Notes under the pieces: model-generated
The model's database searches: none
Told to the model about the DNA's origin: nothing
The model's input: only the letters and a program-made list of their open reading frames with translations
Shown here: piece by piece, positions 21,147-64,000 of the stretch
Numbering within the stretch: position 1 is the stretch's first letter
Layout of the letters: each line of letters opens with the position of its first letter
Program-made: the position numbers and the translations under genes
Assembly: GCA_021775475.1 (NCBI GenBank)
Contig: JAJFHS010000018.1
Span: 98,494-162,493 of the forward strand
DNA from: Hyphomicrobiales bacterium
GTDB taxonomy: Bacteria > Pseudomonadota > Alphaproteobacteria > Rhizobiales > JAJFHR01
Reading direction: 5' to 3'
DNA length: 64,000 bases

Positions 21147-21411
21147 CTTAGTTTCCCCTCATCGAGTCCGCTATGGGTCAACTCCAATCTTCCCCGCAGC
21201 GAACGATCGCCGGGGCTGCGGTCGCACCCCTTGGTTCCCGATTGCGGGTTTTCCATTCACCTCCACCATTTGAATATTGATCTTGCATTAAATCGGTGTG
21301 CAGATTGCTATTTTTCATCAGATTTTGCTGTGGAAACTGGATGCCTGGTAACCGGGCAGAAGTTCCTTCAGTCCTGGTATGCTCGCCACTTTAGTGGTTG
21401 ACAGGGCTCTT

Positions 21412-21435
21412 ATATATCTGTAATTCGAGATATAT
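21412..21435 (+). promoter_or_regulatory. candidate ArsR operator overlapping the arsR-arsC start codon
   Basis: Perfect 8-bp inverted repeat ATATATCT-GTAATTCG-AGATATAT, preceded by TTGACA at 21398. Confidence 0.6.
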
Positions 21436-22300
21436 GGAACTGAATCACGCGATGGATACCCTGCATGCGTTGTCGCAGGAAACACGGTTAAAGATTTTCA
21501 GACTGCTGATTAAAAGCGGTCCTGGTGGTTTGCTTGCCGGGGATATCGCCCGCAAAATGGCCGCGCCGCAAAACACGGTGTCAACGCATCTGGCCCTTCT
21601 GTCTCGCGCCGGGCTGGTTGAGCGCACCCGAAGGGGTCGCGAAATTATCTATGCACCACAGCTTTCAGCTATCCATGATCTGGTTTTATTCTTAACTCAA
21701 GGTTGCTGCGAAGGCCGCCCGGAATTGTGTGGCCCGCTTGTTGATGATCTCACCTTACCGCTTTCGGAAAAAAAAGAGGCGGGCGATCAACTCTATAACG
21801 TCTTGTTTCTTTGCACCGGCAACTCTGCCCGCTCAATTCTCGCTGAAGCCATTTTGAGCCGACGGGGCAAGGGGCGCTTTCAGGCCTTTAGTGCCGGTAG
21901 CTATCCGGCAGGCAAAGTTAATCCCTTTGCCATTGAATTGCTTGAGAAGCTTGATTTCTCGACCTCGCATTTGCGCTCAAAAAACTGGGATGAGTTTGCC
22001 CGGCCCGAGGCACCAGCCATTGATTTCATCTTCACCGTTTGTGACAATGCCGCTGGCGAGGTCTGCCCAATCTGGCCGGGCCAGCCTATGACCGCCCATT
22101 GGGGTGTGCCTGATCCAGCCGGGGTTGAAGGGTCTGATGCACAAAAAGCTTTGGCCTTTGATGATGCTTACCGTCAACTTGAAACCCGTATCAATCGTTT
22201 CGTAAATCTGCCACTGGACACTATCGACAGGTTGTCTTTGAAAAAACACATAGACGAGATCGGTAATAACCTTTCGCCGCCCCTTAAACATCACCCTTAA
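21434..22300 (+). CDS. ArsR-ArsC fusion: ArsR repressor domain plus LMW-PTP-type arsenate reductase
   Basis: N-terminal ArsR wHTH (ALSQETRLKIFRLL ... NTVSTHLALLSRAGLVERTRRGREIIY) with GCCEGRPELC; C-terminal VLFLCTGNSARSILAE (CX5R) PTPase domain. Confidence 0.9.
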   Translation: MELNHAMDTLHALSQETRLKIFRLLIKSGPGGLLAGDIARKMAAPQNTVSTHLALLSRAGLVERTRRGREIIYAPQLSAIHDLVLFLTQGCCEGRPELCGPLVDDLTLPLSEKKEAGDQLYNVLFLCTGNSARSILAEAILSRRGKGRFQAFSAGSYPAGKVNPFAIELLEKLDFSTSHLRSKNWDEFARPEAPAIDFIFTVCDNAAGEVCPIWPGQPMTAHWGVPDPAGVEGSDAQKALAFDDAYRQLETRINRFVNLPLDTIDRLSLKKHIDEIGNNLSPPLKHHP

Positions 22301-22317
22301 CACTGAGATTTTTCCCT

Positions 22318-23394
22318 ATGACTGAAACGCATTTACACTCCCCGGCTGCCCCACAAATCAGTTTTTTTGCCCGTTATCTTAGCGTCTGGGTAGCTTTGTG
22401 TATTATCGTTGGCATTGTCCTTGGCCAGCTGTTCCCGGCATTTTTCCAGTCGCTGGGCCGAATGGAAATGGCTCAGGTCAATATCCCGGTGGCGGTCCTC
22501 ATCTGGTTGATGATTGTGCCGATGTTGCTCAAGGTTGATTTCGGTGCGTTGCATGAAGTGCGGCAGCACTGGAAGGGTGGCAGTATTACCGTGTTGGTCA
22601 ATTGGGCGGTAAAGCCATTTACCATGGCACTTCTGGGCTGGCTTTTTGTCGGCTGGTGGTTTCGCGATATGCTGCCGGAGGCCCAGATAGACAGCTATAT
22701 AGCGGGCATGATCATACTGGGGGCAGCGCCCTGCACCGCCATGGTGTTTGTATGGTCTAATCTCACCCGGGGGCACGCTAATTTCACATTATCGCAAGTC
22801 GCGCTGAATGATCTTATCATGGTGTTTGCCTTTGCGCCCATTGTCGCTGTGCTGTTGGGCATGTCGGCGATTGCTGTGCCATGGGAAACCCTGACGCTGT
22901 CTGTGGTGTTGTATATTGTCCTGCCGGTGATTGGTGCGCAAATCTGGCGCAAAGCCTTAATGGCCAAAGGAGGGCAAAAGGCACTGGACAGGACGCTTGC
23001 ACGACTTGATCCAATAGCAATCGCGGCCCTGTTGTTGATGCTGGTGTTATTGTTTGGGTTTCAGGGTGGACAAATTGTTGCCCAACCTTTGGTTATTGCG
23101 CTGCTGGCCATCCCCATTACCATCCAGATATATTTCATTTCCGGCTTAACGTATGTGCTCAACCGACACTTTGGTGTGGCTCATTGTATCGCTGCCCCGT
23201 CAACCCTTATTGGGGCTAGTAATTTTTTTGAACTTGCCGTTGCCACCGCCATTGTGCTGTTCGGCTTTCAATCAGGAGCAGCGCTGGCAACAGTGGTTGG
23301 TGTGCTGGTGGAAGTACCCGTCATGCTGTCGATAGTAAAGATAGTTAACTCCAGCAAGGACTGGTATGAGGCTAAATCTGACCCTGTTGCATGA
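22318..23394 (+). CDS. acr3: ACR3 family arsenite efflux permease
   Basis: MILGAAPCTAMVFVWSNLTRGHANFTLSQVALND and 10-TM pattern, next to arsR-arsC. Confidence 0.94.
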   Translation: MTETHLHSPAAPQISFFARYLSVWVALCIIVGIVLGQLFPAFFQSLGRMEMAQVNIPVAVLIWLMIVPMLLKVDFGALHEVRQHWKGGSITVLVNWAVKPFTMALLGWLFVGWWFRDMLPEAQIDSYIAGMIILGAAPCTAMVFVWSNLTRGHANFTLSQVALNDLIMVFAFAPIVAVLLGMSAIAVPWETLTLSVVLYIVLPVIGAQIWRKALMAKGGQKALDRTLARLDPIAIAALLLMLVLLFGFQGGQIVAQPLVIALLAIPITIQIYFISGLTYVLNRHFGVAHCIAAPSTLIGASNFFELAVATAIVLFGFQSGAALATVVGVLVEVPVMLSIVKIVNSSKDWYEAKSDPVA

Positions 23395-23416
23395 ACGCGC
23401 GGTTCTCAGGAGAGAT

Positions 23417-23446
23417 TTGACTTAATTAAAAAGCTGGCAATATACT
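23417..23446 (+). promoter_or_regulatory. putative sigma70-like promoter of the aioXSR operon
   Basis: TTGACT-N18-TATACT upstream of aioX. Confidence 0.45.
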
Positions 23447-23568
23447 CATGTCTGGGCTGGGGAGCGATTGAGTACGATAAAATTCAAATAGAAAAAGACT
23501 GCTGAAAAAGCTGCGTAAACAGCTGGAAACAAACAGAATTCAGCTTGAATGCAGGGGAGAGTGATTCA

Positions 23569-24441
23569 ATGGCCAAACTTACCAGACGAACTGCTTTGAT
23601 GCAGATTGCATCAACAGTGGCCGCAGCAGGGCTACTTTCCAGCCGCCGATTGGCAGCTCAACCGGTTAACGAACTGCGGTTTGGCTTAACACCGGTTTTC
23701 CTCAACAATGACATTGAATTGCTGGAAAAACTGAAGACCTATCTGGCCAAAGCAACAGGACTTCCCGTCACTCTGGTTCAGCGCCGAACCTATCAGGAAG
23801 TAACATCCTTGCTGATATCGGGTGAGTTGGACGCGGCCTGGATATGCGGCTATCCGTTTGTTAAAAATCGTCAGCGGTTGAAACTGGTTGCCGTACCGGT
23901 GTGGCATGGCAAACCTCTATACCAGGCATACCTGATTACCGGAAAGGATCGCAACGCCTCCTCTTTTGCTGATCTTAAGGGTGACCTGCATGCGTTCTCC
24001 GATCCTGACAGCAACTCAGGTTATCTTGTTACGCGTGCATTGCTGGCTGAATTGAAAACCCGCCCCGAAAGTTATTTTTCCAGCACATTTTTCACATACG
24101 GTCATCGTAATGTGGTGCGGGCGGTTGCTTCAGGACTGGCGGGCAGTGGCAGTGTTGACGGCTATGTCTGGGAAGTTATGCGCAAAACCGAACCTGATCT
24201 TATCAATCAGACCAAAGTCATTCAAAAATCCGAGTGGCTGGGATTTCCACCTATTGCTTGCGCCCGCTCAATGGTCAATAGCAAGAAACTCAACGCTCTT
24301 TCTCCCGCCATTCTCAACATGGAAAGTGACGCAGATGGTCGTGCTGTTCTGGCATTGCTGGGGCTTGACGGTTTTAACCAGTTCCCTCCCTCTCTTTACG
24401 ATGACATTGCCGCCAAGGTCGCCCTGATTGAGGTTGGGTAA
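23569..24441 (+). CDS. aioX: AioX, periplasmic arsenite-binding protein (PhnD-like fold)
   Basis: Twin-Arg-like leader TRRTALMQ; ELRFGLTPVFLNNDIELLEKLKTYLA, DAAWICGYPF with Cys; followed by a histidine kinase, sigma54 regulator and aioBA. Confidence 0.88.
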   Translation: MAKLTRRTALMQIASTVAAAGLLSSRRLAAQPVNELRFGLTPVFLNNDIELLEKLKTYLAKATGLPVTLVQRRTYQEVTSLLISGELDAAWICGYPFVKNRQRLKLVAVPVWHGKPLYQAYLITGKDRNASSFADLKGDLHAFSDPDSNSGYLVTRALLAELKTRPESYFSSTFFTYGHRNVVRAVASGLAGSGSVDGYVWEVMRKTEPDLINQTKVIQKSEWLGFPPIACARSMVNSKKLNALSPAILNMESDADGRAVLALLGLDGFNQFPPSLYDDIAAKVALIEVG

Positions 24442-25904
24442 TGAGAAGTCTGCTGAACAAGCTGCGATCCTTGCCCATAACGATACGGGTTCCGTTAATC
24501 GCAGCTGGTTTTATGATTGTTGTCAGCGCAATGGTATCACAACAGGTGCTGCAGCGCCTGTCTGCATCACAAACCGAACAGCTAACCGATCTGACCGGTG
24601 CCTATCTTGATGGGCTTTCAGCCGCCGTTACACCTTATGTGTTGCGCAATGATATATGGGAGGTATTTGATGCGCTTGATCGATCGCGAAACAGATACAA
24701 AGCCTTGCGCCCGCTTGAGACGATCGTATCAAACACTGATGGTAAAATAATTGCATCATCAAATCCCCGGACCCTGCCCTCGCAATCAACCTTGCCAAAA
24801 GCCTATGTGGGGCGTTTTGCAAACCGCCAGGATTTGATCATTGATGCAAAAAATGGTCGTGCGTATGTGCGCCGGGATCTGATTTACCAGAACCGCAAGG
24901 TTGGAGGCATATTTTCCACACTCAATGTATCATACCTGATGGCTGAACGCCGCTCGGTTTTGATGGAGCTGATTTTCACAAACCTTGCGTTGACCCTGTT
25001 GCTCGCTGCAATCGGTTATTTTGCCATGCGCCGAATGTTAAAACCCATAAAAATACTGGCAGATCATCTTGAGCAGGGCATAAACAGTACGGTTGAGCCC
25101 ATCCCTGCGGGAATAGTAAAACACAAGAACAGCGAGTTTGGCCGGTTGTTTCAAAATTATAATGCGCTGGTAAAAGTTGTGCGCGAACGTGAAGCTCTGG
25201 CTGATCGTCTGGCAAGGGAAGAACGTCTGGCTTCACTTGGCAGGCTGACATCGGGCATGGCGCATGAAATCAACAACCCGCTTGGTGGATTGTTCAATGC
25301 CGTTGATACGCTCAAAAAACACGGGAGCAGTGCTGCGGTCCGGCGGACCTCGCTGAGCCTGCTTGAGCGTGGACTTTCGGGCATTCGTGATGTTGTTTCA
25401 ACGGCACTTGCCACCTATCGGCCCGAACGTGATGAACGCAATTTGCAATCAAAGGATATTGATGATCTGGCGTTGTTACTGCAACCTGAACTGCGTCGCC
25501 GCAAATTAACCCTGGAATGCAACAACCTGCTCGGCGATGACCCGCCGGTAAGTGTCGCACCAGTGCGTCAGGCGGTTTTAAACCTGCTGCTTAATGCTGC
25601 TGCAGCCTCTGTTGAAGGCGGACAAATAAATCTGCGGGCGGAAGTTGTCGATAATATTCTGGCGATTGCAGTTGGCGATAGTGGCAAGGGGCTGCCGGAG
25701 CCCGCCAGGCAGTTTTTGACTGGCACTCATGACGGTGCTGTGCCGGTTGTCGATGGCTCTGGCATTGGTCTGTGGATGGTGCAAAGGCTGATAAAGGAGG
25801 TCGACGGGGTAATTGAGGTTGGCGAATCCAAGTTTGGCGGTACGTTGATAACCACCAAGATTAACCTTCAACATCAAAAACAGGTAATTGAAAATGCTGC
25901 ATGA
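24441..25904 (+). CDS. aioS: AioS, sensor histidine kinase
   Basis: LGRLTSGMAHEINNPLGGLFNAVDTL H-box; HATPase GSGIGLWMVQRLIKEVDG; overlaps aioX stop. Confidence 0.88.
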   Translation: MRSLLNKLRSLPITIRVPLIAAGFMIVVSAMVSQQVLQRLSASQTEQLTDLTGAYLDGLSAAVTPYVLRNDIWEVFDALDRSRNRYKALRPLETIVSNTDGKIIASSNPRTLPSQSTLPKAYVGRFANRQDLIIDAKNGRAYVRRDLIYQNRKVGGIFSTLNVSYLMAERRSVLMELIFTNLALTLLLAAIGYFAMRRMLKPIKILADHLEQGINSTVEPIPAGIVKHKNSEFGRLFQNYNALVKVVREREALADRLAREERLASLGRLTSGMAHEINNPLGGLFNAVDTLKKHGSSAAVRRTSLSLLERGLSGIRDVVSTALATYRPERDERNLQSKDIDDLALLLQPELRRRKLTLECNNLLGDDPPVSVAPVRQAVLNLLLNAAAASVEGGQINLRAEVVDNILAIAVGDSGKGLPEPARQFLTGTHDGAVPVVDGSGIGLWMVQRLIKEVDGVIEVGESKFGGTLITTKINLQHQKQVIENAA

Positions 25905-27231
25905 GACGCAAACAATTGGGCTGATTGAAGATGATCTGGTGATGGGGGAATCCCTGATCCAGCGGCTGCAGCTGGAAGGATATAAAACCACCTGGTGGCA
26001 GACCGGCCAGGAAGCTTGCGCCAATATGGAACAGGTTAACCCGGATATAGTGGTGTGCGATTTGCGCCTGCCGGATATTAGTGGTGATGAGGTTTTCCGC
26101 AAGGTTAAATCAGAATTTGGCGGACCGCCCTTCTTGTTTATAACCGCTTACGGTGAGATAGATCAGGCAGTGGAATTAATGCGTGCAGGGGCGGGTGATT
26201 ACGTCACCAAACCGTTTGAAGTTTCTGACTTTCTTCAACGTATTGATGTTTTGCTGACCCAGCGCGCCATCACCAGCGGTGATAATGCCGTCCTTGGTAC
26301 ATCTTCAGCCATGCAGGAAATAGAGGCGTTGCTTCATCGTGTCGCCAATATTGACAGCATCTTGCTGCTTACCGGCGAAACCGGTGTGGGCAAGGAAGTT
26401 GCCACCCGCTTCATGCACCAGATTTCAACAAACTCGGACCGGCCGTTCATGGCGGTTAATTGTGCCGCCATTCCGGCCGAACTGATTGAAAGTGAATTGT
26501 TTGGCCACGAAAAAGGTGCCTTCACCGGTGCCCAGGACACACATTTGGGATATGCGGAACGGGCGCAGGGTGGCATTTTGTTTCTTGATGAAATCGGTGA
26601 GTTGCCACTAACCGCGCAAACACGGTTGTTGCGGCTATTGCAGGAGAGGGTATTCACCCGCGTCGGTGGCGAAAAGGAATTGCCGTTTTCCGCCCGCATC
26701 GTCTGCGCCACAAATGCTGATCTGGAGCAGATGATTGAAGAAAAATTATTTCGTCGTGATCTCTTCTACCGCATCAATGTGATACCCGTCCACGTTCCCC
26801 CGCTGCGTCAGCGCCACGCTGATATTCTGCCGCTGATCAATTATTATGTTGAGCTTTTTGCCGAGACCATGCCAAGCAATGTTACCGGATTGTCTTCGCT
26901 GGCCGAAGAATCAGCTCTTTCCTATGAATGGCCCGGCAATGTACGCGAGTTGCGAAACCGGGTTGAACGTGCAGTAGCGCTCGCCCATGATATACGACTT
27001 GGTCAGTCTGATCTGTTTCCCGAATTAGCTGGAGATGGCAATAGTGATGAGCGCCAGACGATTGCAACGTTGGCGGATGTGCGTGATTTTGCCGAACGCC
27101 GCCAAATTCTGCGTGCTCTGGAAAAGACCGGCGGCCAGACCGGAAAAGCTGCCGCATTGCTCGGCGTCTCACGCACCACAATGTGGGAAAAAATGCGGCG
27201 TCTGGACTTGCTGGCGGATGATCCTTCGTAA
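25894..27231 (+). CDS. aioR: AioR, sigma54-dependent response regulator
   Basis: Receiver (IEDDLVMGESLIQRL...VVCDLRLPDISGDE), AAA+ with GAFTGA, C-terminal Fis-type HTH. Confidence 0.9.
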   Translation: MLHETQTIGLIEDDLVMGESLIQRLQLEGYKTTWWQTGQEACANMEQVNPDIVVCDLRLPDISGDEVFRKVKSEFGGPPFLFITAYGEIDQAVELMRAGAGDYVTKPFEVSDFLQRIDVLLTQRAITSGDNAVLGTSSAMQEIEALLHRVANIDSILLLTGETGVGKEVATRFMHQISTNSDRPFMAVNCAAIPAELIESELFGHEKGAFTGAQDTHLGYAERAQGGILFLDEIGELPLTAQTRLLRLLQERVFTRVGGEKELPFSARIVCATNADLEQMIEEKLFRRDLFYRINVIPVHVPPLRQRHADILPLINYYVELFAETMPSNVTGLSSLAEESALSYEWPGNVRELRNRVERAVALAHDIRLGQSDLFPELAGDGNSDERQTIATLADVRDFAERRQILRALEKTGGQTGKAAALLGVSRTTMWEKMRRLDLLADDPS

Positions 27232-27257
27232 GGTTTGCCGGACAGAAATTTTGAAAG

Positions 27258-27275
27258 TGTTCGGAAATCCGAACA
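27258..27275 (+). promoter_or_regulatory. candidate AioR upstream activating site
   Basis: Perfect inverted repeat TGTTCGG-AAAT-CCGAACA about 75-90 bp upstream of the sigma54 -24/-12 element. Confidence 0.55.
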
Positions 27276-27338
27276 TGTAAAACCCATGTAATTTCCATAA
27301 CCATTTGATTTCACTGGTTTCTACGTGGTCGCCATAAC

Positions 27339-27354
27339 TGGCACAGACCCTGCA
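27339..27354 (+). promoter_or_regulatory. sigma54 (RpoN) -24/-12 promoter of aioBA
   Basis: TGGCAC-N5-CTGCA; GG-N10-GC spacing exact. Confidence 0.85.
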
Positions 27355-27398
27355 ATGGATAAACGGTCTTAATTTATTATCCATGGGAGGGAAAACAC

Positions 27399-27917
27399 GT
27401 GAAACGTTGTGACAAAATGGTAGACATCGGCAGGCGCCAGTTTTTGCGCGGTGGCGGTGTTGCTGCAGCTGGTATGGCGACCGCAATGGTTATGCCAACA
27501 GAAGTGCAGGCAAAAAGCGGCGCGCTGCTTGAGTATCCAATCAACCGGCTCGGTAACATGAGCAATCTTAAAGTTAATGAACCAATGGAGGTCGCCTATC
27601 CTGATGGCGATGCACCCGGCGTCTTGCTGAAGCTTGGCAAACGTGTTGAAGGCGGTGCTGGCCCGGATGGCGATATTGTCGGGTTTTCAACCATGTGCCC
27701 GCACAAGGGATTTGGCCTCAATTACAATGCCGGCGACAAGACATTCAATTGCCCGGTACATCTTTCGCGTTTTGATGCCGAAGCCGGTGGGCAGGAAATA
27801 TGGGGTCACGCCACACAGAACCTGCCGCAATACACACTTCGTGTTGACGACAAGGGCGACATCTATGCCGAAGGTATTGATGAACTGCTCTATGGTCGCT
27901 TAAGCAACGTACTTTAG
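27399..27917 (+). CDS. aioB: arsenite oxidase small (Rieske) subunit
   Basis: Tat leader GRRQFLRGGG; Rieske ligands MCPHKGF...FNCPVHLSRFD. GTG start at 27399 or ATG at 27417. Confidence 0.95.
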   Translation: MKRCDKMVDIGRRQFLRGGGVAAAGMATAMVMPTEVQAKSGALLEYPINRLGNMSNLKVNEPMEVAYPDGDAPGVLLKLGKRVEGGAGPDGDIVGFSTMCPHKGFGLNYNAGDKTFNCPVHLSRFDAEAGGQEIWGHATQNLPQYTLRVDDKGDIYAEGIDELLYGRLSNVL

Positions 27918-27936
27918 GAAAATCGGAGAAAATAAA

Positions 27937-30486
27937 ATGGCTTATAAAAGACAAATCGATCGTCTTCCGATTATTCCGAAAGACGCAAAAGAGCAAAACG
28001 TAACCTGCAGCTATTGCATCGTCGGTTGCGGCTACAAGGCCTATACCTGGCCGATCAAAAAAGAAGGCACGGCCACCAGCAATGCCATGGGTGCCGATCT
28101 TGGCAAACAACAAGATCCCAATACATCGGCCTGGTATTCACCTTCAATGTATAATGTGGTTAAGCAAGATGGCAAAGATGTTCACCTGGTGATCAAACCT
28201 GATCCTGATTGTGTGGTGAATTCCGGCCTTGGTTCTGTGCGCGGTGCCCGTATGGCTGAAAACCGCAATTCCAACGTTACTAATACCCAACAGCAACGCC
28301 TGACAGACCCTCAAGTGTGGCGAAATGGCACCTGGCAACAGACTTCATGGGATGATGCCCTTGATCTGGTAGCACAAGTTACGGCCCGCTTCATTGACAA
28401 GGGCAAGGAGGATGATCTGTTCGTCTCCATGTTTGACCATGGCGGCTCGGCCGGTGGTTATGAAAACACCTGGGGTACGGGAAAACTTTATTTCGAATCG
28501 ATGAAAGTTAAGAATTGTCGCATTCACAACCGGCCCGCCTACAATTCAGAGGTGCATTCAACCCGTGACATGGGCGTTGGTGAACTTAACTATGCCTATG
28601 AAGATTATGAATTGACCGACACCATCTTCCTGGTTGGCGGAAATCCACTGGAGACACAGACAAACCTGTTCCTCAATCACTGGGTTCCCGGTATGCGCGG
28701 TGACAGCATTGGCAAGAAAAAGAAAGAACTTCCCAATGAAGCCCACGCGGCTGCCAAAGTGGTCATTGTTGAACCGCGCCGTACAGTAACGGTTAATGCT
28801 TGTGAAGAATTTGCCGGTAAGGAAAACGTCCTGCACCTGCAAATCAACACCGGTAGTGATCTTGCGTTGTTCAACACGCTGTTCACCTACATCGCTGACA
28901 TGGGCTGGACTGATAAAGATTTCATCAAGAACAGCACATTTGATGGAACTACCAAGCCGCGTGCCGTTACTGGCGGTGATTCTCCTCCACCCAAAGGTGT
29001 TGCACAGATAGAAGATGCCGCCCACCCGGCTGTTCTTGGCAGTTTTGAAGTGGCCCGCAAGGCCTGTAAAATGTCAGTTGCAGAAGGTGCAAAAATCTGT
29101 GGCGTTTCTGAAGCCGACATCAAATTAGCAGCTGAATGGCTTGCCAAACCCAAACAGGGTGGTGCACGCAGACGCACTGTCTCAGCCTATGAAAAAGGCA
29201 TCATCTGGGGCAATGACAACTACCGCACTATCGGTGCGCTGGTAAACATTGCGCTTGTCACAGGTAATGTCGGCCGTCCCGGTGGCGGTGTTTGTCGTCT
29301 TGGTGGTCACCAGGAAGGGTACTATCGTCCTTCTGATGCTCATGTCGGGCGCCCGGCACCTTATATTGATGATCTTCTCATCAAGGGCAACGGCAAGGTT
29401 CATCATATCTGGGCCAATGACCACTATAAAACCACCCTCAATGCAACAGAGTTCAAACGCGTCTATAACAAGCGTACAAACATGGTCAAGGAAGCCATGG
29501 ATGCAGCGGCCGGTGGCACGCGCGAACAACTGGTTGATGCCATTGTGAAGGCGGTCAATGCCGGTGGTCTGTTCACAGTTGATGTTGATATCATTCATTC
29601 GCAAATCGGCAAGGCAGCTCATGTCATTCTGCCTGCGGTTGAAGCGGGTGAAATGAACCTGACATCGATGAGTGGTGAGCGTCGTCTGCGCCTGACTGAA
29701 AAATATATGGATGGTCCGGGATCAGCCATGCCTGATTGCCTGATTGCAGCAGGTCTTGCGCAAAACCTTGAACGTGTTTTGCGGGCTTCGGGCAAAGGTG
29801 CATATGCTGACCAGTTCAAGGGCTATGACTGGAAAACCGAAGAAGATGCCTTTATGGATGGTTACAACAAGGGTAATCCAGATGTCACCTATGACCGTCT
29901 TCGCGCCATGGGCACAAATGGTGTTCAGGAGCCTGTGGTTGGTTACAAGGACGGCAAACTGGTCGGTACCACCCGACTTTATACCGATGGCAAATTCGGT
30001 GCTGCTGACAAGCGGGCCCGATTCTGTGCAGGCGCATGGCGTGGCTGGCAAGCCAAGGGCAAGGCTGAGCAAAAAGAAAAACATGCGTTTTACATCAACA
30101 ACGGCCGTTCCAACCTCAACTGGCAAAACCAGTTCCTTGATCAGGAAAATGACTTTGTTCTGGACCGTACCCCGTTCCCGTTCATTGAAATGAATCCTGA
30201 CGATATGAAGGAGCTGGGCATAAATCAGGGTGACCTTGTTGAAGTTCACAATGATGTGGGCGCAACGCAAGCTATGGCTTACCCGACGCCCACCGCCAAG
30301 CGCAAGGAGACCTTTATGTTGTTTGGCTCGCCCATGGGGCAACAGGGCAATGTGGTCAATAATGGTGTGAATGAGCTCATTTTGCCAGACTACAAACATT
30401 GCTGGGCAAACATCCGCAAGATTGCTGACGCACCAGCAGCGGTTAAACATCTTTCATTCAAGTCAAAGGAATATGTTGCTGGTTAA
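27937..30486 (+). CDS. aioA: arsenite oxidase large molybdopterin subunit
   Basis: VTCSYCIVGCGYKAYTWP 3Fe-4S ligands (CX2CX3C); molybdopterin oxidoreductase body, 849 aa. Confidence 0.97.
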   Translation: MAYKRQIDRLPIIPKDAKEQNVTCSYCIVGCGYKAYTWPIKKEGTATSNAMGADLGKQQDPNTSAWYSPSMYNVVKQDGKDVHLVIKPDPDCVVNSGLGSVRGARMAENRNSNVTNTQQQRLTDPQVWRNGTWQQTSWDDALDLVAQVTARFIDKGKEDDLFVSMFDHGGSAGGYENTWGTGKLYFESMKVKNCRIHNRPAYNSEVHSTRDMGVGELNYAYEDYELTDTIFLVGGNPLETQTNLFLNHWVPGMRGDSIGKKKKELPNEAHAAAKVVIVEPRRTVTVNACEEFAGKENVLHLQINTGSDLALFNTLFTYIADMGWTDKDFIKNSTFDGTTKPRAVTGGDSPPPKGVAQIEDAAHPAVLGSFEVARKACKMSVAEGAKICGVSEADIKLAAEWLAKPKQGGARRRTVSAYEKGIIWGNDNYRTIGALVNIALVTGNVGRPGGGVCRLGGHQEGYYRPSDAHVGRPAPYIDDLLIKGNGKVHHIWANDHYKTTLNATEFKRVYNKRTNMVKEAMDAAAGGTREQLVDAIVKAVNAGGLFTVDVDIIHSQIGKAAHVILPAVEAGEMNLTSMSGERRLRLTEKYMDGPGSAMPDCLIAAGLAQNLERVLRASGKGAYADQFKGYDWKTEEDAFMDGYNKGNPDVTYDRLRAMGTNGVQEPVVGYKDGKLVGTTRLYTDGKFGAADKRARFCAGAWRGWQAKGKAEQKEKHAFYINNGRSNLNWQNQFLDQENDFVLDRTPFPFIEMNPDDMKELGINQGDLVEVHNDVGATQAMAYPTPTAKRKETFMLFGSPMGQQGNVVNNGVNELILPDYKHCWANIRKIADAPAAVKHLSFKSKEYVAG

Positions 30487-30509
30487 TCACAGCAAATAAC
30501 ACAAACAAC

Positions 30510-30537
30510 ACCGGGTGCCTGGAGACAGGCACCCGGT
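30510..30537 (+). terminator. Stem-loop terminator after aioA
   Basis: 12-bp perfect stem ACCGGGTGCCTG-GAGA-CAGGCACCCGGT, then a T-rich tail. Confidence 0.65.
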
Positions 30538-30635
30538 AGATAATTTTAGTTTCCCAACAAATTATGTTGCCTGAACTGGTCGGCACTTTTGATCGTATAT
30601 ATTTCAACTTTTTATTCTGATAAAATGGTTGGGTG

Positions 30636-30649
30636 ATGATTCAGATCAA
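30636..30649 (+). promoter_or_regulatory. possible FNR/FixK-like box (one mismatch)
   Basis: ATGAT-TCAG-ATCAA, 9/10 match to TTGAT-N4-ATCAA, 54 nt before the next ATG. Confidence 0.35.
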
Positions 30650-30702
30650 ACAAATCTGTTTGTTTTGAGGTAAGGTGAACTCATAACAATGGAGATGCGA
30701 TA

Positions 30703-30906
30703 ATGGCCTTTGATCAGCTTATATCCGAAATTAACATGCTACTGTCTGAAATGGAAAACCAGCCGCGCGATCAGTGGGAGCTGCACGAAGTGATTTTAGA
30801 AAAACTCAATGAATTGCGCGCGCTCGGTCTGCCGGTGCCGCATGACCTTGAGCAACTGGAAGAAAGGCTCGCGCGCGAGTTGAAGACAGCAAGCAAGAAT
30901 GAATAA
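30703..30906 (+). CDS. small protein of unknown function (67 aa)
   Basis: ORF with acidic/Leu-rich helical composition (LHEVILEKLNELRALGLPVPHDLEQLEERLARELK). Confidence 0.6.
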   Translation: MAFDQLISEINMLLSEMENQPRDQWELHEVILEKLNELRALGLPVPHDLEQLEERLARELKTASKNE

Positions 30907-30908
30907 TT

Positions 30909-31388
30909 TTACTCCGCAGCGGCATCAGCCTGCAACTGACCGTAATTTTCAATCCCGATTTTTTTGAGCAGGTCGATCTGGGTTTCAAGCCAGTCAATGT
31001 GGCCTTCTTCGTCGCGGATGAGGCTTTCAAACAGGTTCATCGAAGCATAATCATTATGCGCGTTGCAGACACCGCGGGCTTCTTGATAAAGCGCGCGCGC
31101 ACTGTATTCGGCTTTTAGATCGCTGCTGAGGACTTCTTCGAGACTTTGCCCGATCATCAAGGCATCAAGATTTTGCAGATTGGGAAATCCTTCAAGAAAT
31201 AAAATCCGCTCAATCAGACTGTCGGCGTGTTGCATTTCCTCCAGCGCTTCTTCTTTTGATTTTCTGGCGAGCTTGGCGAACCCCCAATCATCGAGCATGC
31301 GATAGTGCAACCAATATTGACTGACTGCAGTTAACTCATGTTTGAGTGCCTTGTTCAGATACTCTAAAACCTGTTCATTACCCTTCAT
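30909..31388 (-). CDS. bfr: bacterioferritin
   Basis: [37 protein letters not shown]...[30 protein letters not shown]. Confidence 0.96.
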
Positions 31389-48018: not shown

Positions 48019-48339
48019 TCAGATAACGAAAAATCCCGCGATAATCAATCCGCTCACAATGGTAGAGCCGACCACCGATGCAATCAAAGTGTTGCCACTC
48101 ACGGTTATGTTCCGGCTGCTTAATACAGCGCCCAGCACGACGAACAGGAGCACATCAAGCACCCCATGTGTGATCCAGTGATGGCCGGTGAGAGACACCA
48201 TTAGCTGGAATACACTCTCGTTACCTTCCTTGAGAATAACAAGTAGGGCGCTCAATATGCTGGTGATGGCATAGGAAATGCCATACCCGGTTACCTTTGC
48301 GCTGGCAATATCGGTCATATCAGTTTGATGTGTCGTCAT
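48019..48339 (-). CDS. small membrane protein of unknown function (His-rich GHHWITHG)
   Basis: 106-aa ORF, three hydrophobic segments. Confidence 0.7.
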   Translation of the reverse strand: MTTHQTDMTDIASAKVTGYGISYAITSILSALLVILKEGNESVFQLMVSLTGHHWITHGVLDVLLFVVLGAVLSSRNITVSGNTLIASVVGSTIVSGLIIAGFFVI

Positions 48340-48351
48340 TATCTTTACTCC

Positions 48352-48816
48352 TTATATCAGTTTGGCGAGCAGAGCGACTTTGACACCCATGCCGATTAAA
48401 GCGCCCGCACCTTCCATGGCCAGGCCCATGAGCACCACCAGTGCCGATGTCCACAGGACCAGATTTCGCGTAACCTTTTTCTTGACGACATCACCGTAAG
48501 CAGCGATTGGCAGGAATGTGCCCAACAACAGCAGTGTAAAGAAAAGATGTTCTTTGGTTTCCATGGCCAGACTATGGGCAAAGGGCCAGGGACCGGCTTT
48601 GATAATGGCTTTGTCGCCACCGTAATAGATGACATACCAGTAGCCGCCGACGATATAGGCACACCAGAGCAGAACGGTTGCCAATACACTGACGCGGCGA
48701 AGACGGGCAATGTTTCCATCGCTCGCATTTAGAGCTTCAACGAACACCCAGACAGCCGCAATCATGGCAAGAACGCCGAATGTAGGGTGGAGCATTAAAA
48801 TCATTTCTTTAGACAT
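48352..48816 (-). CDS. membrane protein of unknown function with in-membrane His residues
   Basis: MILMLHPTFGVL...PWPFAHSLAMETKEHLFFTLLLLG; 4-TM pattern. Confidence 0.75.
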   Translation of the reverse strand: MSKEMILMLHPTFGVLAMIAAVWVFVEALNASDGNIARLRRVSVLATVLLWCAYIVGGYWYVIYYGGDKAIIKAGPWPFAHSLAMETKEHLFFTLLLLGTFLPIAAYGDVVKKKVTRNLVLWTSALVVLMGLAMEGAGALIGMGVKVALLAKLI

Positions 48817-49336
48817 GTTTTATCTCCTTTCTAAGTTTTCCGGCAACGGGTGAAGTACCGCCCAGGAATTTGAATACCAGCGCTGCGGCAGCACCAAACA
48901 GTACCTTGGAAATTAGGCTGGTGGTGTAGGGAACCAGAGTTGTGAAAGCCGGGTTGAGTGCTGGTAAAATGATGAAAAAATTTAATCCCCAGACGCCAAC
49001 GAGCAAGCCAATCACGGCGATAGGTTCAAAGGCTGCGGGTAGTGTGGGCGGCAGGAAGGAGCGCACGAAGGCGAAAATTGCAATGCCAAGTAGGATCGCA
49101 AGCCCCATATGTATGGCAATGCCCAGCGGCACGGCTGCATCTGATGCCACCAGCAACGGGAAAACCGTCTGGGTAACGCCGCGCGCAACCGTAGAGGCCT
49201 CGCTGTCGGAAATATTTGCATAGATGGCAATCCATGAAACCTCGGCGGCACCACCGGCCAGACCGGCTATGGCACCTGCTGTCCAAAGTTTTGAGATACC
49301 GGAAAAACCCGGTCTATTGCTTTTAGAAAACTGCAT
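48809..49336 (-). CDS. membrane protein of unknown function
   Basis: Met at 49336 (MQFSKSNRPGFSGISKLWTAGAIAGLAGGAAEVSWIAIYANI), multi-TM; overlaps the next gene. Confidence 0.75.
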   Translation of the reverse strand: MQFSKSNRPGFSGISKLWTAGAIAGLAGGAAEVSWIAIYANISDSEASTVARGVTQTVFPLLVASDAAVPLGIAIHMGLAILLGIAIFAFVRSFLPPTLPAAFEPIAVIGLLVGVWGLNFFIILPALNPAFTTLVPYTTSLISKVLFGAAAALVFKFLGGTSPVAGKLRKEIKHV

Positions 49337-49438
49337 TTTAATAATTACCTCTCGAGTTTGCGCTTGCAAAGCCCTCGGCAATACCAGCGGAGAATACCCC
49401 CACGAATTTTTATATATCGGGGTAATCTCCAACACTTA

Positions 49439-49452
49439 TTGATCCAAATCAA
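49439..49452 (-). promoter_or_regulatory. FNR/FixK-type box
   Basis: TTGAT-CCAA-ATCAA, exact match to the TTGAT-N4-ATCAA consensus, 103 nt upstream of the 49336 start. Confidence 0.7.
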
Positions 49453-62653: not shown

Positions 62654-64000
62654 CTACGCGATTTTGGCTGATTGACTGACTATCCAGATGATCCAGATTT
62701 TGAGCCAAAGAAGCTTGATCCACTTGAGGATGAGGCGGAAGTTGTATCCTGCTGCTGCGAGGATGGGGTTGATGGCATCGCCGTGTTTGTGGGCGAGGTA
62801 GTTGCGGGTCATTCTGTGTTCGTTTTTGATATGCCCAATCACCGGCTCAACGGCGGCACGGCGTTTCATTTTGCGCTTGATTTCGGGCGTCATTCGGCGT
62901 TTCTGGCCGGTGGTGAAGACTTTGAACTTGTGCTCAAGGTTGGCATTGTGGCCCTTGTAGCCTGCATCGGCCAAAATGCGTTTGAGGCCAGCCCCGGTGA
63001 GCGCCTCGATCTGTGGCAGGATGGTTTTGAGCGTATGACCGTCATAGGGCCTGCCCGGCAATGCCTTGGCATGGACGGCGAACTGGCCGCCCTTGCAACG
63101 GTTGAGTGTGGTGGCGATGGAGGCTTTGATGCCAAACTCGTAAGGTTTGTGTGCCTTGCCTTTACCGATGCACTCGACCTCTGGCGCATGCAGGGAGTAG
63201 ATCTTTTTCGGGATGTCATCGCGGGGGCGTTGGGTGCGCACCCGGTTCGCCTTCCACAGTTCGGCCCGGAAGATATCTTCAAGCACGTCGTTGCCTTTGA
63301 TCTGGCGGCCAATATCGCGAATGGTACGGCCCAACCATGTTTTGAGCTTCTTTAACTGCCGTCTGGCCCGTTTGTACTGTTTGGCATGAGCATAGCGCTG
63401 CTGCATGATCAAGGCATATTTTCCAACCCTCTTGTACGACTGGCGCAGTTTCAGCCCGTGCTTGCGCGCCATCTTGACCAGCCGCACACGCGCCTTGTTC
63501 ATGAGCTTTGCATCAGTTGGAAAAGCAACGTTCTTTTCGGCCACCGTGGTGTCAACAATCACAGTTGTGAAGTCAGATGGTTTTGCAGCTCCCATCTTGA
63601 CAGCCACATTCAGGCTCTCGGCCAGCAGTGCTTCAATCTGATCCTCACCCATGCGCTGGCGCCACCTGGTCATGGAAGAGCGGTCAAAGGGCAGTTCATG
63701 GCAGAAAAACTCTTCACCGCAAAAGAACTGGTAATACGGGTTCTCCACCCAGCGCGCACAAAGTTCCTCGTCAGACAGGTTGTCGGCATATTTGAGAATG
63801 TGCAGACCCGCCATCAACCGGGTTGACAGCGGCGGATGACCGGCCCGGTCGGTATAATTCTGCCCACATTTATCTGACAAAAATTGCCAGTCAATCGCAC
63901 CGGTCAAAATCACCTTCTCATGGCTCATATCAATGATCTGATCGAGCCTTGAGCGAAACATATCGTGCTGGTTGGTCTCAACAGGTTCTTTTGGCTTCAT
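62654..64000 (-). mobile_element. IS5-type insertion sequence, DDE transposase (IS right end lies beyond the window)
   Basis: 448-aa transposase: LDQIIDMSHEKVILTGAIDWQFL...GHPPLSTRLMAGLHILKYADNLSDEELCARWVENPYYQFFCGEEFF...LADAGYKGHN...EPVIGHIKNEHRMTRNYL. Confidence 0.93.

Follow-up and report, generated by a model that had tools for sequence, protein, structure and literature searches.

Two adjacent genes for small membrane proteins, carried on the minus strand of the window (the whole 64-kb stretch of DNA analyzed), occur side by side in distant bacteria and in archaea. That these genes, here called gene 2 and gene 3, belong together and are predicted to be regulated by low oxygen is well supported, and we hold it with high confidence. 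Less firmly, we propose that they encode an outer-face heme- or metal-centered redox protein coupled to quinones and to thiol/copper partners; we prefer this reading while rating it somewhat short of probable. The protein family appears undescribed in the sources searched. Its likely job is of a known kind: a membrane redox protein for low oxygen.

Organization of the operon

The features of the operon are as follows.
49439..49452, minus strand: FNR/FixK-type box TTGATCCAAATCAA (minus-strand reading TTGATTTGGATCAA), an exact palindrome conserved upstream of homologues
49411..49416, minus strand: predicted -10 hexamer TATATA, 22 nt past the FNR/FixK box (class II spacing)
48809..49336, minus strand: gene 1 (P0001), 175-aa membrane protein with an ATG start, putative accessory
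48352..48816, minus strand: gene 2 (P0002), 154 aa, four helices, with the H10/H81/E86/K88/E89/H90 cluster, putative core subunit
48019..48339, minus strand: gene 3 (P0003), 106 aa, three membrane helices and an HHW motif, putative core subunit

The three small membrane protein genes are as tightly packed as a preliminary description of this DNA had stated: genes 1 and 2 overlap by 8 nt, and 12 nt separate gene 2 from gene 3. They lie on the minus strand, a detail which that description left out. Direct reading places a Shine-Dalgarno-like sequence ahead of each of the three starts. For gene 1, a longer alternative begins with GTG at 49435, but the ATG at 49336 is preferred because the GTG would precede the predicted transcript start. 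The motifs GHHWITHG, LHPTFG, and AHSLAMETKEH were confirmed in the translations. Elsewhere in the window, an arsenic cluster read from translations (21398 to 31388) comprises an ArsR/ArsC-like fusion, an ACR3-like exporter, and a periplasmic binding protein, followed by a histidine kinase, a sigma-54 regulator, and the small and large subunits of arsenite oxidase. An IS5-like transposase runs from 62654 to the window end at 64000.

Genes 2 and 3 form a conserved pair

A genome-wide scan for gene 2 returned 42 relatives, spanning Proteobacteria, Acidobacteria, Gemmatimonadetes, Verrucomicrobia, Firmicutes (Vulcanibacillus), Campylobacterales, Patescibacteria, and two deep archaea. The neighborhood search suggested in the preliminary description found a gene 3 homologue adjoining gene 2, on its downstream side, in nearly all 42 loci; homologues first missed at some loci were recovered by eye or by profile. 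By profile search, gene 3 is present in exactly one copy in 35 of 35 gene 2-carrier genomes. Among 188 genomes of one Patescibacteria class, where gene 2 was found in 23 and gene 3 in 24, the searches for the two genes agree apart from two divergent copies of gene 2 (G571 and G616), one gene 3 located where a contig begins (G737), and two marginal matches to gene 3. The distance matrices of the two proteins are correlated with r = 0.83, while the best of 2,000 permutations reached 0.31. Homologues of gene 1 were found only in closer relatives (L001 to L010), always with the pair. Judged by conservation, the unit originally described as three genes has a core of two, genes 2 and 3, with gene 1 an accessory specific to its lineage.

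The pair is rare in the phylum of the window (3 of 399 genomes) and commoner in the Patescibacteria class (23 of 188); some of the genomes that carry it are smaller than 1 Mb. Culturable carriers include Collimonas sp. OK242 and Pseudomonas sp. MMS21-TM103. Many of the carriers are metagenome bins, probably misbinned in some cases, for example, L007, which is labeled gammaproteobacterial and is 88% identical to the window protein, and L018, which is labeled Kaiserbacteria and is 57% identical. A mobile origin was considered and rejected, with no match in plasmids (genes 1 and 2), phages (gene 3), or viral contigs (gene 2).

The proteins had been said to belong to no recognizable family, and the searches bear this out. 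Pfam held no family for genes 1, 2, and 3 or their homologues, and NCBIfam gave nothing near a curated cutoff for the three proteins or for homologues of genes 2 and 3; weak subthreshold matches were scattered among acyltransferase, PanS, NuoJ, and COX15 families. Gene 1 and its relatives gave nothing meaningful in the family scans. No PDB match was found for gene 1 and no PDB sequence match for gene 2. No known cytochrome b family profile matched the three proteins or the homologues of genes 2 and 3, and no CopD/DUF2214-type family in Pfam matched the gene 2 homologues. Homology between gene 2 and gene 3 was rejected (profile comparison probability, 3%). Literature searches found no paper describing the pair.

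Predicted low-oxygen control

The exact FNR/FixK box reported earlier was confirmed; it is the only exact TTGAT-N4-ATCAA in the 64-kb window, where shuffles gave an expectation of 0.16. Across the whole genome, there are 22 exact sites versus 1 for a reversed control pattern. The window's box lies 103 nt before the gene 1 ATG on the minus strand. Other genes of the genome with a box at 55 to 110 nt include sdhC, katG, a gene for a universal stress protein that follows cydAB, and an operon with a COX1 protein (all but COX1 named from their translations), and this boxed gene set is an ordinary FNR-type regulon.

The box also recurs in relatives. In the 400 nt preceding the pair or gene 1, we counted 4 exact boxes versus 0.19 expected and 10 one-mismatch boxes versus 1.09 expected, with the expectation computed from the remainder of the same loci. 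Loci with an upstream box come from Alphaproteobacteria, Vibrio, Collimonas, Chromobacterium, and one Gemmatimonadetes metagenome-assembled genome. A spacing of 22 nt between box and -10 element is the geometry of a class II FNR promoter, and a -10-like hexamer stands 21 to 23 nt from the box at 6 of 15 boxed loci compared with 8% of random positions (P = 0.0007). Since the box recurs upstream of distant homologues and class II spacing is enriched, its presence is more than chance. The FNR/FixK-type control initially suggested is therefore supported, as a prediction, by a box and promoter spacing conserved across lineages. An upstream FNR-like box was not found in many carriers, archaea and Acidobacteria included, so low-oxygen control would be a trait of part of the family.

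Conserved residues and predicted structure

AlphaFold2, one of the checks proposed at the outset, gave confident helical models for both members of the pair: four helices for gene 2 (mean pLDDT, 95.7) and three long helices plus one short helix for gene 3 (mean pLDDT, 93.5). The histidines that had looked conspicuous in the translations are conserved. In gene 2, H10, E86, K88, E89, and G138 are invariant in 62 of 62 sequences; H81, H90, M85, and Y61 are kept in 61 and Y65 in 59. In gene 3, W55 is invariant and H53 and H54 are nearly so. Neither alignment contains a conserved Cys column.

Mean loop charges place the TM1-TM2 and TM3-TM4 loops of gene 2 inside with a clear signal, which would orient H10, Y61, Y65, H81, E86, E89, and H90 toward the outer face. 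For gene 3, loop charges predict the HHW motif on the same face, with a weak signal. The gene 2 cluster and the HHW motif of gene 3 may thus form a shared outer-face site. Heme or metal ligation by these histidines is plausible, because they are conserved and both sets are predicted to lie on the same outer face. Foldseek searches gave no significant match for the gene 2 model, transporters included, and no fold match for gene 3.

Gene neighborhoods

Outside Patescibacteria, flanking genes are mostly unrelated between loci. In the family as a whole, many carriers lack both an FNR-like box and a quinone gene beside the pair. In two Pseudomonas genomes, the pair is directly preceded, on the same strand, by genes for an NqrF-like reductase and a UbiA prenyltransferase (L011:5502-8785 and L014:5566-8785), although the ubiquinone that pseudomonads normally use is made elsewhere.

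Extracytoplasmic redox genes abound around the pair in Patescibacteria. In L098, DsbA and DsbB lie directly upstream of it, DoxX-like genes are found near it in L041, L101, L102, and L111, and FMN-type flavoproteins follow it directly in some loci (L045, L047, L097, and L100). In one Patescibacterium (L119:6316-13083), genes for a DUF1573-like protein, a CcdA-like protein, a copper ATPase, genes 2 and 3, and DoxX all run on one strand. In seven Patescibacteria (L095, L047, L097, L100, L103, L108, and L112), the gene directly upstream encodes a DUF2214-like protein that has four helices and conserved H and E; its homology with gene 2 was rejected (profile comparison probability, 0.2%).

Of the 23 Patescibacteria carriers, 19 have VKOR or DsbB, versus 72 of 165 noncarriers (P = 0.0004, uncorrected for relatedness or genome completeness). 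Five Patescibacteria have one or the other within 10 kb of gene 2, versus 0.55 expected (uncorrected for relatedness). Two divergent relatives of gene 2 (L114:5882-6346 and L115:5861-6328), which keep H10, H81, E86, K88, and E89, also sit in VKOR/thioredoxin clusters. L114 has no gene 3 and its gene 2 copy adjoins a multicopper-oxidase or nitrite-reductase-like gene; L115 has a gene for a 117-aa membrane protein in gene 3's place. Of the redox or gas-related module first envisaged, the redox half is favored by these neighbors, while the gas-related half found no specific support.

Proposed function and alternatives

We propose that the products of genes 2 and 3 bind each other as the two subunits of a single protein of the cytoplasmic membrane, which would be switched on at low oxygen where an FNR/FixK/Anr-type regulator exists. 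At its outer (periplasmic) face, the invariant H, E, and K residues would make up a heme or metal site, and this site may trade electrons with the quinone pool as well as with thiol or copper redox proteins outside the cytoplasm. One likely use would be the disposal of electrons put on quinones by DsbB/VKOR or by flavin quinone reductases, with gene 1 acting as a lineage-specific accessory.

The main rival is copper handling, in which the pair would bind or pass on Cu(I) at the outer face, either to detoxify it or to help assemble cuproproteins, and would be needed more when oxygen is low. We consider it unlikely. Copper genes gather around the pair roughly as strongly as thiol genes. Five Patescibacteria have a copper-type P-type ATPase within 10 kb of gene 2 versus 0.6 expected (uncorrected for relatedness), L101 and L102 being among the loci with one near the pair, and P-type metal ATPases are close to it in L035, L036, and L042. 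A multicopper oxidase is found near L042 and L114, and a cupredoxin is encoded beside the pair of the Patescibacteria locus L099. The invariant His residues and near-invariant Met85 could bind Cu(I), but strictly invariant E86, K88, and E89 would be odd for such a site, and conserved Cys is absent. Nor is co-occurrence with copper ATPases significant in Patescibacteria (18 of 23 carriers versus 105 of 165 noncarriers; P = 0.12, uncorrected for relatedness or genome completeness). A slightly less likely reading is a small channel or transporter that moves protons, ions, or a small solute by way of its conserved charged residues, with low-oxygen control reflecting energy stress. Such a role would suit small multihelix proteins with conserved E, K, H, and Y in or near membrane helices, and several of the subthreshold family matches are to transporters. 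All of these matches, however, fall far below curated cutoffs, redox genes are among the neighbors, and Pfam, NCBIfam, and Foldseek gave no confident match to a characterized transporter family, the homology that the preliminary description named as counting against its reading.

Two further readings concern respiratory oxidases. Among membrane proteins, the gene 2 model comes closest to subunit III chains of the bo3 and cytochrome c oxidases (TM scores, 0.58 to 0.68), and the four and three helices of genes 2 and 3 would add up to the seven of a split relative of that subunit; an oxidase assembly factor is a variant of this reading. We regard it as highly improbable: the matches have E values of 0.17 or worse and 7 to 17% identity, gene 3 has no fold match, and the COX3 (subunit III) profile matched none of 39 gene 2 homologues. 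In addition, heme-copper oxidase (COX1) was not found in 5 of 35 carrier genomes or in any of the 23 Patescibacteria carriers, so the pair does not depend on it. Homology to subunit III was accordingly rejected, the fold likeness being weak, sequence support nil, and some carriers without the oxidase. Linkage to heme-copper oxidase genes (within about 20 kb in L024 and L029 and about 41 kb away on the same contig in L036) was close to chance and was likewise set aside. The pair might instead be a small quinol oxidase or reductase of the membrane, of a type not known before and with no relation to the heme-copper or bd oxidases, through which electrons drain at low oxygen. It would serve organisms, the Patescibacteria carriers among them, that have disulfide machinery and lack a heme-copper oxidase; we think this improbable as well, if marginally less so. 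The outer-face redox protein remains the reading we prefer, a redox role being favored by the neighboring genes.

Neither Pfam nor NCBIfam has an entry for this membrane protein pair, whose H/E/K core is nearly invariant across bacteria and archaea. If it is quinone linked, it could explain the electron sink for disulfide formation in Patescibacteria without heme-copper oxidase and would add a new component to the low-oxygen (FNR) response of Proteobacteria.

Comparison with known systems

Like COX3/CyoC, gene 2 is a membrane helix bundle, but the fold resemblance is weak, no sequence match joins them to the pair, and the pair occurs without any heme-copper oxidase. Histidines conserved in membrane helices, as in gene 2, recall membrane b-type cytochromes, whose known family profiles the pair does not match. 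DsbB and VKOR are quinone-reducing thiol oxidases. They too are small four-helix membrane proteins, and they co-occur and cluster with the pair in Patescibacteria; their conserved cysteine pairs are missing from genes 2 and 3, which match neither family. Among FNR/FixK/Anr regulons, cco and cyd are published members of those of FnrN/FixK (PMC4999443). No described member family of such regulons includes genes 2 and 3, but they share with their redox genes (cco, cyd, sdh, and usp) the same type of box and the same class II promoter spacing.
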